Origin: Elusimicrobia bacterium RIFOXYA2_FULL_39_19
GTDB taxonomy: Bacteria > Elusimicrobiota > Endomicrobiia > CG1-02-37-114 > XYA2-FULL-39-19
Length of the DNA stretch: 43,961 nucleotides
Assembly: GCA_001800285.1 (NCBI GenBank)
Contig: MGVC01000057.1
Coordinates: forward strand, 1 to 43,961
Direction: 5' to 3'
Below are positions 1,904 through 43,310 of the stretch, piece by piece. The position numbers were made by a program, and so were the translations under genes. Position 1 is the first letter of the stretch, and every line of letters starts with the position of its first letter. The notes below the pieces were generated by a model that made no database searches, was not told where the DNA came from, and saw nothing but the letters and a program-made list of their open reading frames with translations.

Positions 1904-3241
1904 TTACTTCTTTACTTCCCAGCGGCCACCTTTATCCGGTCCAACCCTGCGAATCACTCTATCTGTTTTAAGTTTATTTAAATTCCATTCAATGCCGCGG
2001 CGGGTTAACCCGGTTTTGTCCATAAGCTCTTTTTGAGTAATCCGTGAATTAGCTGCCAGTAAACCCATTATCTTCTCCCTGGTTTTCTCCACAGTTTTCT
2101 CCACAGTTTTCTCCACAGTTTTCTGTGTAGTTTCTTCAGGCCGGTAAAAAGTAACCACAAAACCGCTTTTATTTTTTGTAAAAGAAACTTTTACCTTTGC
2201 AGCTTTGCATTCCCGGGCTATCCGGCGCAAGCCGGAACCCCACTTTTCCACATCCTCAGAACGAAACAACGTTTCTGCCACCAAAGGATTGCGGGGCATA
2301 CTGGCTTCTGTGCCTTTTATAAAATCTTCGGGTGAATATTCATAAGGGAACTGGCCCGGATTAAATATTTCTATCCTGTCTTTATAAATTGCCACCTCAT
2401 TGTTCTTTGGATTTGTAAAATCCCGGTGGCAAAGTGAATTAATAATAGCTTCTCTAAGAGCGCGCACAGGAATTTCCGGTATTTCAATTCTCCTGCTTCC
2501 GGAAAGGTCTGCCCGCCAGTTAATATGTTCCTTTACATATATCTCGCTTTTTTCAATAAGATTGAAAAGATTTCCTCTGAAACTTTGAATATCCAGAAAG
2601 GTTATTTTATCTTTTCCGGCAAAAACGGCCGCCTGCACCTCAATGCGGTTATCTTTACAGAAAAGCGCATACCCCGCATTTAAAAGCCTTGTTCCTTTTA
2701 TAAGATTAAGCTTTTTCAGCACATTTTTAGCTGAATCAAAAGCAAAACCTATACGCCCTGCCTCACGGCCCCTTTTTACAAATTCGCGGATAGTTGAGAT
2801 ATCTGCCTTTGCAATTGGAGCCTCAGAGACTTCCGTACCCCAGGAATACACATAATGATTTTTCTTTTCAACAAGCCGGCGCAACTCAGATACAGAAAGC
2901 TTTCTATCTTCATCACCCATGCGCAAATAGAATCTGCCGTAGGCAGCATATAGCTGGTCCTGACCGGCAAAATTAACCGCTATACATTCTTTACCGGCAA
3001 TCTTCTGTTTAGTTATTTCCGGAAATATCTTTGGTTCTATGTGGTCACTAATGGCTTTGGAAATATCCCTGATAGTTGATTTGCCTATACCTTGCCCAAC
3101 CACTACACCGTTATCAGCAATTCCAAAATATATTGTACCCTTGCCGTGCTGATTAAGCATCGCGCACATAGATACAATGGCTTCTTTTAGTTCAGAAGTG
3201 GATTTTTTGAGTTCAATTAATTCAGATTCTATGAATTTCAT
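1904..3241 (-). CDS. AlbA_2 / RecG-like ATP-binding transcriptional regulator
   Basis: This 445-residue protein has the layout of the group often annotated as 'ATP-dependent DNA helicase RecG-related' or 'divergent AAA-4': an N-terminal AlbA_2 (Schlafen-type) domain (about 1-120; ESELIELKKS, GTIYFGIADNGVVVGQG), a middle RecG-associated ATP-binding region (about 220-370; REAIINSLCHRDF, NPLVAETLFRSEDVEKWGSGLRRI) and a C-terminal winged helix (about 395-440; ITQKELMDKTGLTRRGIEWNLNKL). It has no helicase motifs, so a regulatory role is more likely than RecG activity. A linker of repeated TVEK units joins the last two parts. Such genes are common in accessory DNA. The target is unknown. The ATG start lies 6 bp after the radical SAM gene's stop. 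Confidence 0.8.
   Translation of the reverse strand: MKFIESELIELKKSTSELKEAIVSMCAMLNQHGKGTIYFGIADNGVVVGQGIGKSTIRDISKAISDHIEPKIFPEITKQKIAGKECIAVNFAGQDQLYAAYGRFYLRMGDEDRKLSVSELRRLVEKKNHYVYSWGTEVSEAPIAKADISTIREFVKRGREAGRIGFAFDSAKNVLKKLNLIKGTRLLNAGYALFCKDNRIEVQAAVFAGKDKITFLDIQSFRGNLFNLIEKSEIYVKEHINWRADLSGSRRIEIPEIPVRALREAIINSLCHRDFTNPKNNEVAIYKDRIEIFNPGQFPYEYSPEDFIKGTEASMPRNPLVAETLFRSEDVEKWGSGLRRIARECKAAKVKVSFTKNKSGFVVTFYRPEETTQKTVEKTVEKTVEKTREKIMGLLAANSRITQKELMDKTGLTRRGIEWNLNKLKTDRVIRRVGPDKGGRWEVKK
2089..2124. repeat. 12-bp tandem repeat inside the AlbA_2 gene
   Basis: Three exact copies of CCACAGTTTTCT lie head to tail, with a diverged unit on each side. On the coding strand they encode TVEK repeated in a charged linker between the ATPase-like region and the winged helix. 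Units of 12 bp keep the frame, so copy number could vary without destroying the protein. Confidence 0.9.
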
Positions 3242-6706: not shown

Positions 6707-6739
6707 TTTTCTTCCCGTTCCCTTTTAAACAGTTATATC

Positions 6740-7001
6740 AAAATTGATAATTTACAATTAAAATAATTGAAAAACATTTTCTAAGTGAGCCTAAGCGATA
6801 CAAATTGTTTGGTTTTCAGAAATGAGTTGCCGGGGCTCCTCCGCTGTAAGCGGGAATTAGGAGAACATGGCGAGGCATATCCTCTTTAGTGTCTGCTGGT
6901 AGATTACAGGATAATCTAGCAGACCTCGTTTATGAATAAGCAATTTGTGCTTGAGCGTTAAGCGAACAAGAAAATCGTTTTTCATATTATTTTTGACATT
7001 A
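6740..7001 (+). repeat. Fold-back repeat family 1, copy A (candidate structured RNA)
   Basis: This 262-bp segment is nearly identical to 25037-25299. The core (6768-6984) begins TGAAAAAC and ends GTTTTTCA. It folds into an outer stem (TGAAAAAC/GTTTTTCA, ATTTTCT/AGAAAAT), a second stem (ACAAATTGTTT/AAGCAATTTGT), a closing stem (CGGGG/CCTCG) and three internal hairpins: CTCCT-CCGCT-gta-AGCGG-gaatt-AGGAG, ACAT..GAGG-catat-CCTC..GTGT, and CTGC..TAGATTA-cagga-TAATCTA-GCAG. Most differences from copy B keep the pairing. The plus strand is given because all single-sided changes give G-U pairs only on that strand. It lies between hemW and a GT2 gene. Confidence 0.75.
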
Positions 7002-7007
7002 CCACAT

Positions 7008-8096
7008 TTATACAAAGTCTGCCAGAATAGTGTTTGACACAAACAGCGCTTTCTGTGTCAGAAACATCCTGTTATCCGCTATTTCAAGAAAACCGTCATT
7101 TTTATATTTAGTAATAATATCGGTATATTTACTCTCAATTTGCTGCGTCAGCTCTATACCTCTGCGCATGCGCAGTCCCAACATAACGGTTTCACCCAGT
7201 TTGCTTTCTTCATCAAGTGATTCCGATTCTTCTACTAAACTTTTTTTGCCGGCATCTTTTAAATATGCGCCTAAGTCCGCCACATTTTTAGACCGCACAC
7301 CGTTTATGTATGATACTGCTGAAGCACCTATTCCAATATATTCTTTGTTTCCCCAGTAAATTTTATTATGCACGCATTCACGGCCGGATAAAGCAAAGTT
7401 TGAAATCTCATAGTGGCCGTAGCCGTTTGCGGGCAGGTATTCGGAAGTGAATTTATACATATCAGAAGCAATATTTTCATCTACACTGACATTATTATAA
7501 TCAAACATAGTACCTTTTGCCGGTGTTAAACAGTATGCAGAAATATGTTCCGGTTTTAAAGCAACTGTTTTTTGCAGAGTATTCTGCCACTGTGCTAAAC
7601 CTTGCCCGGGAAGGCCGTAAATAAGGTCAATGTTAATATTGTTTATCCCAAGCATTCTTGCCTGTGTATACTTATCAAGGAATTCTTCGCTTGAATGTAT
7701 GCGGCCTAAATCCTTAAGATATTTATTGTCAAAACACTGCAGGCCTATGCTTAAACGGATAGCTTCAGAAAATAGTTCTTGTAGAATTGATAGTTTTTCT
7801 CTATCCAGGCTTTCCGGATTGGCTTCAAAGGTCATTTCTTTTAAATTAGTCAGGTCAAAGTTGTTTTTAATTATGTTTAATAAGCGCCTTAACTGTTGCG
7901 GTGAAAGAATAGACGGTGTGCCGCCGCCGATAAAAACAGTGGTTAGTGGGTAGTGGTTAGTGGTTAGCAAATAAATCTCACGTTCTAAAGCATCAATATA
8001 TTCCGGCATTAAAGCTTCTCGGCCGGAAAAGGACGTGAAATCACAGTAGTGGCATTTTTTTTTGCAGAATGGAATGTGGATGTATAAACTTTTCAT
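7008..8096 (-). CDS. hemW: HemW-like heme chaperone (radical SAM)
   Basis: This 362-residue radical SAM protein starts MKSLYIHIPFCKKKCHYCDF. The CxxxCxxC plus further cysteine, FIGGGTPS and INIDLIYGLPGQ are typical of the HemW family, formerly misnamed as oxygen-independent coproporphyrinogen oxidase (HemN). HemW delivers heme to membrane respiratory enzymes. The ATG at 8096 is preferred over an in-frame TTG three codons upstream because the family begins at this sequence; no ribosome binding site supports either. Residues near 50-60 (LTTNHYPLTT) come from a 7-bp tandem repeat, see 7939. The gene follows lepB with a gap of about 120 bp. Confidence 0.88.
   Translation of the reverse strand: MKSLYIHIPFCKKKCHYCDFTSFSGREALMPEYIDALEREIYLLTTNHYPLTTVFIGGGTPSILSPQQLRRLLNIIKNNFDLTNLKEMTFEANPESLDREKLSILQELFSEAIRLSIGLQCFDNKYLKDLGRIHSSEEFLDKYTQARMLGINNINIDLIYGLPGQGLAQWQNTLQKTVALKPEHISAYCLTPAKGTMFDYNNVSVDENIASDMYKFTSEYLPANGYGHYEISNFALSGRECVHNKIYWGNKEYIGIGASAVSYINGVRSKNVADLGAYLKDAGKKSLVEESESLDEESKLGETVMLGLRMRRGIELTQQIESKYTDIITKYKNDGFLEIADNRMFLTQKALFVSNTILADFV
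7939..7966. repeat. 7-bp tandem repeat within hemW
   Basis: Four units (GTGGTTA, GTGGGTA, GTGGTTA, GTGGTTA) lie in the hemW reading frame, just before the FIGGGTPS motif. On the coding strand they read as CTAACCACTAACCAC-type repeats, a kind often seen between genes. Similar degenerate heptamers occur in the gap at 8105-8125. Confidence 0.85.
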
Positions 8097-22808: not shown

Positions 22809-22859
22809 ACGCCCGCCTCTACATTTAAAACGATATTTGAAAAATCATTTATTAAGCGA

Positions 22860-22997
22860 CTCATTTTTTTATCATTAAAATGAGCGAAGAAATATGCTTG
22901 TAGAAAACCTCTGGCGGCGACCTGTGCAATTACGGAGCCGCCAGTAGAGTGAGCTACAAAGCGAACGTTTTTTGGAAAGCATATTTCTGAGCTTCAT
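22860..22997. repeat. Fold-back repeat family 2, short copy
   Basis: Perfect 11-bp terminal inverted repeats (GAAATATGCTT / AAGCATATTTC) enclose an 8-bp hairpin CTGGCGGC/GCCGCCAG and the block GAGTGAGCTACAAAGCGAAC. In the copy at 33247 the termini are GAAACATGCTT/AAGCATGTTTC, a compensatory change. A separate perfect palindrome, CTCATTTT/AAAATGAG, lies at 22860-22884. It fills the gap between kdsD and kdsC. Confidence 0.75.
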
Positions 22998-23026
22998 GTT
23001 TTTCAAAGGAAACGTTCCTGAGCAGC

Positions 23027-25004: not shown

Positions 25005-25036
25005 CCTCTTCCTCCTGTTAAATTATTTGTAATATT

Positions 25037-25299
25037 AAAATTGATGATTTACAATTAAAAATAATTGAAAAATATTTTCTATGTGAGCCTAAGCGATACA
25101 AATTACTTGATTTTCATAAATGAGTAGCCGAGGCTCCTCCGCTGTAAAGCGGGAATTAGGAGAACACGGCGAGGCATATCCTCTTTAGTGTCTGCTGGGA
25201 GATTACAGGATAATCTAGCAGACCTCGTTTATGAATAAGTAATTTGTGTTTGAGCGTTAAGCGAACAAGAAAATTGTTTTTCATGTTATTTTGACATTA
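25037..25299 (+). repeat. Fold-back repeat family 1, copy B (candidate structured RNA)
   Basis: This is the second copy of the element at 6740, with about 18 differences over some 263 bp. The core is 25066-25283. The second stem is perfect here (ACAAATTACTT/AAGTAATTTGT) where copy A has ACAAATTGTTT/AAGCAATTTGT, so one pair has changed on both sides. Stem changes CGAGG against CGGGG (both facing CCTCG) and ACAC against ACAT (both facing GTGT) also keep pairing. It fills the gap between the transaldolase start and the kdsA end. Confidence 0.75.
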
Positions 25300-25307
25300 T
25301 TAATTAT

Positions 25308-26132
25308 TTATTTTCTTCTTACAATTTCGTTTATTGCTTTTGCTTTTATAAGCAGTCTTTCAAGTTTATCCAAAGCCAGCATGCTTACCGCGTCACAAAG
25401 CGCTTTTGCAGGTTCCGGGTGAACTTCCAGAAATAACCCGTCACAACCGGCGCCTACAGAAGCCAGGGTAAGCGGATAAATAAACTGAGACTGCCCGCCC
25501 TTTGCGTCTTTTGAAGGCGGCCCGGGCATGCGCACCATGTGCGTTACATCCGCAAAAACCGGATAACCCAGCTCCTGCATAATAGAGTAAGAGCGCATAT
25601 CGCACACCAGGTTGTTATAACCGAATATGGCGCCTCTTTCCGTTAAAAATATTTTTTCATTTCCGGTAGATTTCGCTTTTTCGCATATTTTTTTCATATC
25701 CCAGGGGGCCAGAAACTGGCCTTTTTTGATATTAATTATTCTTTTTGTTTTTGCGGCTTCTACCACCATATCCGTCTGCGGAGAAAGATAGGCCGGTATC
25801 TGAAGTATATCCAGCACTTCTGCGGCATAAGGAATTTCGTTTCTGCAGTGCACATCGGATACTACGGGTATATGAAGTTCTTTTTTAATTTTTGCCAGAA
25901 TGGCCAGGCCTTTTTTTAAACCGGGACCCCGGTAAAAATCTACAGCGCCGCGGTTTGATTTATCGTAGGAAGATTTGAAGATGTAGGGGATTTTTAGTTT
26001 ATCGGTTATTTTTTTTACTTTCTCTGCTACCGTAATAGTAAGTTTTTCGCCTTCAATCACACATGGCCCTGCAATAAGCACCAATGGATTGTTGCCGCCA
26101 ATTTTAATCTTTCCAAGTTCAATTACTTTCAT
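25308..26132 (-). CDS. kdsA: 3-deoxy-8-phosphooctulonate synthase
   Basis: This 274-residue DAHP-synthase-type barrel condenses arabinose-5-phosphate with PEP to Kdo-8-phosphate. Visible motifs are LIAGPCVIEGE, FKSSYDKSNRGAVDFYRGPG, VVSDVHCRNEIPYAAEVLDILQIPAYL and MPGPPSKDAKGGQSQFIYPLT. The cysteine in AGPCVIE (Cys24) suggests the metal-dependent class. The start overlaps kdsB by 4 bp, so the order is rfaE1-kdsB-kdsA in one operon. Confidence 0.96.
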   Translation of the reverse strand: MKVIELGKIKIGGNNPLVLIAGPCVIEGEKLTITVAEKVKKITDKLKIPYIFKSSYDKSNRGAVDFYRGPGLKKGLAILAKIKKELHIPVVSDVHCRNEIPYAAEVLDILQIPAYLSPQTDMVVEAAKTKRIINIKKGQFLAPWDMKKICEKAKSTGNEKIFLTERGAIFGYNNLVCDMRSYSIMQELGYPVFADVTHMVRMPGPPSKDAKGGQSQFIYPLTLASVGAGCDGLFLEVHPEPAKALCDAVSMLALDKLERLLIKAKAINEIVRRK

Positions 26133-33218: not shown

Positions 33219-33246
33219 GATTACTTACAAAAACTGGACAAGCTAT

Positions 33247-33437
33247 GAAACATGCTTGGAGAAAACCTTGCCGAGAGGCATCCCGATATCAACTAATAAA
33301 AGGAAATTATCGGGACAAAGACGACTTTCGCAAACTTGGAGCCCTTGCTTTTCTTTTTATAAGCGGTGGCAAGGACGCTACCCGCAGTCACCAATAGAGT
33401 GAGCCGCAAAGCGAACGTTTTTCGGAAAGCATGTTTC
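33247..33437. repeat. Fold-back repeat family 2, best-preserved copy
   Basis: Perfect 11-bp terminal inverted repeats (GAAACATGCTT / AAGCATGTTTC) bound a 191-bp element. Inside are TCCCGATA/TATCGGGA (33281-33315), the CCTTGC...GCAAGG hairpin followed by GACGCTACCCGCAG, and GAGTGAGCCGCAAAGCGAAC before a T-run. The 349-bp gap between the lipoprotein start and the O-antigen ligase gene contains this element, the promoter and no gene. Confidence 0.8.
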
Positions 33438-33516
33438 TGAGCATTAAAAACAGTTTTTCAAAGAAAATCTATATTCCCGCACAAATCTATATCGATTTCA
33501 CTACTTTGCTTTCTAA

Positions 33517-42825: not shown

Positions 42826-42890
42826 ATTTCTTTTCTGCTTTTTAAATTCACCAATCTGTCCTATTTGAACCAACCCTGAGTAAAGCCGAA

Positions 42891-43238
42891 CGGGTCATCT
42901 CCGAAAAGACCCGGAGCCCTTGCTATCCCTTTTACCAACGGTTGCAAGGACGCTACCTGCAGATCCATTATTGTCTTTGTTTTTCTTTGAAACGATTTAT
43001 TCACTTACCGGGAGGTATCCCGATGTCAAATGGCAAAAGGAAATCATCGGGACAGTTGATGTTTTTCCTTTGGACCGTTGAAAGAAAACGAGATTTTCAA
43101 AACTCCTCTCCCGCTATGGCGGGATCGTCAAACAGTTGAAAATCTTTTAGTTTTTTTTCAACTAAAACATCACTATGAGTAATGTGCTTGCTTCATCTTA
43201 TAAAAGGGAATGCAAGCAATCTCGTTCAAAATCGTTTC
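42891..43238. repeat. Composite fold-back repeat, family 2 modules
   Basis: This region fills most of the 485-bp gap. It has CGGGTC/GACCCG, the CCTTGC...GCAAGG hairpin followed by GACGCTACC, a 249-bp fold-back bounded by TGAAACGATTT (42988-42998) and AAATCGTTTCA (43228-43238), TCCCGATG/CATCGGGA (43018-43052), GATGTTTT/AAAACATC, CCCGC-tatg-GCGGG, GTTGAAAA/TTTTCAAC, AACGAGATT/AATCTCGTT and GCTTGC/GCAAGC. Some stems exclude each other. No gene is present. Confidence 0.7.
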
Positions 43239-43310
43239 ATTTGCTTTTCTAAATTCAAAGAATAAATTTTCAATTAACACCATATTTTAACTTTGTTCCT
43301 GACACCTATT

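Follow-up and report, generated by a model that had tools for sequence, protein, structure and literature searches.

A mobile, MITE-like repeat in Elusimicrobiota with a conserved fold on the strand antisense to its neighbouring genes

Two repeats of about 260 bp in a 43,961-nucleotide stretch of DNA from Elusimicrobia bacterium RIFOXYA2_FULL_39_19 (contig MGVC01000057.1, called the window throughout) are copies of a mobile, MITE-like element and not a stationary RNA gene. We put at roughly one in two the probability that this is a non-autonomous element in which the fold of the antisense strand is under selection and serves a mobility enzyme as folded single-stranded DNA.

The repeats (6740-7001 and 25037-25299) had been singled out in a sequence-only reading, which proposed a structured RNA. 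They are real and 93% identical, and each fills a gap of roughly 300 bp that separates genes on the minus strand, as had been stated (Table 1). The proposed check for further copies by covariance model was run and led to a total of 14 copies with heavy covariation: nine in the 3.09-Mb host genome (G000; seven by DNA search, nine after covariance models), two in a genome of the same family (G002) and three in a genome of the same order (G003). No copy was found outside these three genomes in a 341-genome sample of the phylum and a 394-genome sample of relatives. One exact pattern match was obtained in a collection of named genomes, in Elusimicrobia bacterium CG1_02_37_114, where the flanks are the same as in one G003 copy; phages, plasmids, viral contigs and E. 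coli genomes gave no match. A search of the window and seven loci against Rfam yielded no family at gathering score (best weak match E 2.9), in line with the earlier remark that no named RNA family with such a form was known. The basic element is about 190 bp long and reaches about 260 bp in copies A to C (A and B being those of the window), which carry a nested hairpin; the overall range is 150-260 bp. It contains no gene, and its ends are complementary in all 14 copies, forming terminal inverted repeats.

Evidence for mobility came from the insertion sites and from the nested hairpin. Copy C splits the hisA-hisI junction between the two halves of a 13-bp direct repeat, which includes the hisA stop codon; joining its flanks restores a normal tight hisA-hisI junction, and in the relative G001 this junction is empty of the element. 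Copy K (G002) lies between lpdA and lipB, a junction which is 1 nt wide in G000 and is occupied by a different palindrome in G001. Thus copy C shows both target duplication and an empty site, which together with multiple copies, terminal inverted repeats and the lack of a gene are features of bacterial MITEs, while copy K shows the occupied/empty contrast only. The target repeat is significant by itself in copy C alone. Copies A, B and C carry the same 50-bp hairpin at the same insertion point and the other copies lack it, so that they descend from one ancestor that already carried the insert and spread afterwards; in copy D a different hairpin is inserted elsewhere. A search with one exact end pattern revealed no autonomous or larger element with the same ends.

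Table 1. Coordinates of the two window copies, their neighbouring genes and the parts of the fold.
Feature	Copy A	Copy B	Strand	Remarks
Element	6738..7003	25029..25301	+ (structured strand)	A between HemN-like and glycosyltransferase genes; B between DAHP-synthetase-family and transaldolase-family genes
Neighbouring genes	HemN-like gene ends 7008; glycosyltransferase gene starts 6706	DAHP-synthetase-family gene ends 25308; transaldolase-family gene starts 25004	minus	
Outer stem P1, 5' arm	6769..6781	25067-25079	+	
Outer stem P1, 3' arm	6970..6983	25269-25282	+	
Tandem-G.A internal loop, 5' side	6785..6798	25083-25096	+	GTGAGCCTAAGCGA
Tandem-G.A internal loop, 3' side	6952..6967	25251-25266	+	TGAGCGTTAAGCGAAC
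Stem P2	5' arm 6800..6811, pairs with 6938-6948	25098-25109, pairs with 25237-25247	+	Site of the G-C to A-T double change
Stem P3	AAATGAG 6820..6826, pairs with CTCGTTT 6925-6931	25118-25124, pairs with 25224-25230	+	
Apical domain	6829..6874	25127-25173	+	GCCG stem, GGG/AACA internal loop, variable hairpin
Nested 50-bp hairpin insertion	6875..6924	25174-25223	+	Also in copy C; other 11 copies without
Possible target repeat, left	ACAGTTATA 6729..6737	AATTATTT 25021..25028	+	Not significant alone
Possible target repeat, right	ACATTTATA 7004-7012	25302-25309		Not significant alone; in B takes in part of the stop codon

The fold was assessed on an alignment of the 14 cores from which nested inserts had been removed, with the structure drawn by hand; this structure was relied on because mismatch counts from self-alignment were noisy. 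In it, 92% of 630 alignment cells pair and 27 of the 49 pairs have changed on both sides, a level reached by none of 500 shuffles. When the partners were slid by 1-3 columns as a control, pairing dropped to 36-43%, and a model-fitted alignment agreed (37 of 60 pairs). Copies A and B also fold far more stably than their shuffles (plus-strand z -6.5 and -8.7). By themselves these two copies are weak evidence for a conserved fold; 14 copies are strong evidence. The double change from G-C to A-T in the ACAAATTR stem was confirmed, as were single-sided changes that preserve a plus-strand G-U pair, for example at columns 64-149 and 89-126. In the multibranch structure first proposed, some of the core pairings differ from the 14-copy consensus, and the second and third internal hairpins are no part of the conserved fold since they are the nested 50-bp insertion restricted to copies A to C.

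The outer stem differs greatly in sequence between subfamilies and keeps its complementarity, and conservation within the element resides in the inner loops. There, GUGAGC-NUAA-GCGA faces UGAGC-GUUAA-GCGAAC and forms two tandem G.A modules, whose G.A columns 22-177 and 23-176 are retained in 13 of 14 copies and whose Watson-Crick neighbours covary (G-C to A-U at columns 24-175 and C-G to U-A at columns 32-167, each in four copies). A third G.A module is present in copies H, M, N and P, where the remaining copies have normal pairs. The apex is laid out as CCG-GGG-[variable hairpin]-AACA-CGG-nGAG. In our proposal, the preserved fold comprises the outer stem, an internal loop with the two tandem G.A modules, a pair of inner stems and the apical GGG/AACA domain. 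An ordinary MITE, with a DDE transposase that binds the terminal repeats as double-stranded DNA and an inner fold that is incidental, would explain the terminal inverted repeats and the 13-bp target repeat; however, subfamilies with unrelated outer-stem sequences show covariation with one another in their inner stems, and conservation peaks in the inner loops, the opposite of what recognition of the ends predicts, which makes this explanation quite improbable.

The strand that carries the conserved fold, called plus, is the more stable one in all 14 cores, with RNA as well as with DNA parameters. G-U cells outnumber A-C cells by 33 to 13, but 11 of the 33 stem from one conserved U.G pair and the count is 22 to 13 once this pair is left out, so that the strand argument from G-U pairs is only moderate. 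Five wobbles out of five on the plus strand had been offered as strand evidence in the window copies; this argument is weaker than had been supposed. The conserved G.A tandems, which are C.U on the other strand, are the better argument. Of the proposal of a structured RNA antisense to the genes, the structured plus strand is supported, while RNA is one of two candidate forms of it, the observations fitting folded RNA and folded DNA alike: the repeats are mobile insertions with the conserved strand antisense to host operons, and the fold may act as single-stranded DNA.

The strongest competing explanation is a structured antisense RNA with its own promoter, perhaps bound by protein, that would be the functional product, with the mobile element as its carrier. 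Covariation, G-U pairs and tandem G.A pairs are all very apt for RNA, and RNA folding prefers the plus strand by about 15 kcal/mol on average. Against this, scans of the copies for promoters and terminators gave nothing convincing, the promoter-like and terminator-like sites being at most moderately above chance and different from copy to copy; the flanks are short, with the right end abutting a convergent stop codon; and no reverse transcriptase able to spread an RNA was found (no PF00078 match in the host genome, which is 98% complete). We consider an RNA product unlikely.

In 13 of the 14 copies the right-hand neighbour is encoded on the minus strand and its stop codon adjoins the element, usually no more than about 20 nt away (two-sided binomial p ~0.002 for the orientation; the exception is copy M), and the insertion sites lie mostly inside operons. 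The operon's mRNA thus corresponds to the minus strand, and the conserved fold is carried by the strand not represented in the operon's transcript. This speaks against a simple mRNA element and favours either DNA or an antisense RNA transcribed from a promoter of its own. The least probable explanation is an element that acts in cis within the operon message, in which the sense (minus) strand would fold between cistrons and alter mRNA stability or termination: the location just past stop codons within operons, the good folding of the minus strand and the precedents of ERIC and YPAL, both proposed to act in this way, agree with it, but on the message the G.A tandems would read C.U, and in 14 of 14 copies it is the message strand that folds less well.

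Our preferred reading, a folded single DNA strand, has precedents, since REPs, IS200/IS605 elements and integron attC sites are folded single strands recognised by an enzyme. Under it, the non-autonomous element would insert at gene ends and duplicate its target as a short direct repeat, selection would preserve the fold of the strand antisense to the neighbouring gene, and a putative mobility enzyme would recognise this strand as folded single-stranded DNA; the orientation bias could reflect either transcription-coupled targeting or counterselection of insertions in the sense orientation.

As to the enzyme, the host genome carries REP-associated tyrosine transposases (RAYT), a type of enzyme with folded single strands as its substrate. 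Two genes, L034 (G000:C25:11379) and L035 (G000:C60:27158), score above the cut-off of NCBIfam NF047646 and are flanked by GTAG-footed hairpins; GTAGGGCGGGCTC..GAGCACGCC is a common REP of this genome. Three further Y1 transposase genes (L031, L032 and L033) encode about 335 aa and have GGGGACGT..ACGTCCCC flanking ends, and L031, the one scanned, has a C-terminal DnaA-like helix-turn-helix domain. The hairpins flanking the five Y1 transposase genes examined are of other kinds and never the element studied here. Tyrosine (HUH) transposases are not known to form target repeats, and copy C thus points to another enzyme. An origin from a retron or group II intron was rejected for want of a reverse transcriptase match in the host genome.

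Among known kinds, the nearest by description is YPAL (Yersinia palindromic sequence, RU-2), which reportedly tends to lie just downstream of stop codons, as does the present element in 13 of 14 copies. YPAL is a short non-coding mobile palindrome of intergenic regions with known empty and filled sites and target repeats of variable length (3-26 bp), and it is co-transcribed with upstream genes (PMC2229807). In contrast, the host here is a far relative of Yersinia, the element measures 150-260 bp with nested modules, and it has conserved tandem-G.A loops and a GGG/AACA apex, an outer stem free in sequence and a near-fixed antisense orientation. ERIC and NEMIS/Correia are intergenic MITEs that form long hairpins, and the effect of ERIC on mRNA depends on orientation; TA termini are typical of them, whereas none were seen here, and the element has no match in E. 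coli genomes, which carry ERIC. REPs are 20-40 bp long, bear a GTAG tag and lie downstream of genes (PMC3733652). The element resembles them as a palindrome downstream of genes in a genome with RAYT genes, and its apex layout is reminiscent of the local REP, GTAG-GGCG-GG-CUC..GAG-CA-CGCC, but it is much longer (150-260 bp), with GTAG in copies B, E, I and J, GTGG in K, M, N and P and neither in the rest. Membership in the REP/RAYT system was rejected, as the tag is partial and the RAYT genes are not flanked by the element. Integron attC sites are palindromes that directly follow a stop codon and are active as the folded antisense strand. The element shares with them the position and the conserved folded antisense strand; unlike attC, its copies are scattered in operons and not in cassette arrays, and copy C has a target repeat. 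By reading, the end boxes RYYYAAC/GTTRRRY (R''/R') are absent: an internal GTTAAGC fits, its partner GCCTAAG fails to, and both lie away from the ends. The general kind of element is known, and we came across no account of this particular family, of the fold it adopts or of its one-way orientation; the YPAL (PMC2229807) and REP (PMC3733652) descriptions mention no conserved G.A modules, sequence-free outer stem or fixed antisense orientation.

At least two other repeat families of the host genome have the G.A module in common with the element. The pattern TGAGC-N(2-8)-AAGCGAAC occurs 14 times in this genome and the reversed pattern not at all; nine of these matches, two of them in the window, belong to another palindromic element, family 2, whose right-hand neighbour is a minus-strand gene in nine of nine cases (simple ORF calls). 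Family 2 is palindromic, 200-400 bp long, with a GTGAGC-CGCAAA-GCGAAC hairpin and TTGAAAAACAGTTTT ends (window 22809-23026 and 33219-33516; L066, L068, L073-L076 and L078). At L075 (G000:C74 ~18.6-20.7 kb) a DUF1016_N gene separates two family-2 elements at a distance of about 1 kb from each other, and the first of these elements has a Xer-like tyrosine recombinase gene at its side. A third palindromic family has an unrelated core, GATTTTCAACTGTTTGACGA[hairpin]GAGGAGTTTTGAAAATC (window 42826-43310, minus; L132 3319-3402 and 12782-12868; L138 2578-2757; L099 ~2841-3015), and is also what occupies the G001 lpdA-lipB junction; in two of its copies GAGCGA-type G.A tandems lie immediately inside the outer stem. 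A stricter scan of palindromic gaps returned nine, and in co-directional cases the G.A module was antisense in 19 against 3, a set that includes known copies.

Palindromes are also inserted into palindromes in this genome. The nested hairpin, GTGTCTGNTGG..GATTACAGGATAATCTA..CAGAC, occurs as well within GTAGGGATTGTTCTCCGAACAATCC hairpins, in some places as 50-bp tandem copies (G000 C53:3386, C69:161-298, C69:11767-11904, C43, C54, C31, C35, C6, C25 and C36). Hairpins of another family of about 50 bp (window 1513, 1693, 33338, 36887 and 42913), in which the stem arms vary yet stay complementary around a constant loop with a CGCTACCCGCAG-like tail, are frequently inserted into family-2 elements.

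Tentatively, the element and the families that share its tandem-G.A module, with unrelated cores, could together form a new mobile-element class of this bacterial order; one protein might recognise the module on the folded antisense strand and direct one-way insertion at transcribed gene ends.

The element cautions that 'RNA candidates' with several covarying copies may turn out to be mobile DNA. As a rule, short palindromic repeats are regarded as debris recognised by its ends, whereas a free outer stem and an inner fold with non-canonical loops conserved across an order are signs of a structure-recognising molecule. With the element antisense and just past stop codons, a link between transcription and insertion can be put to the test.
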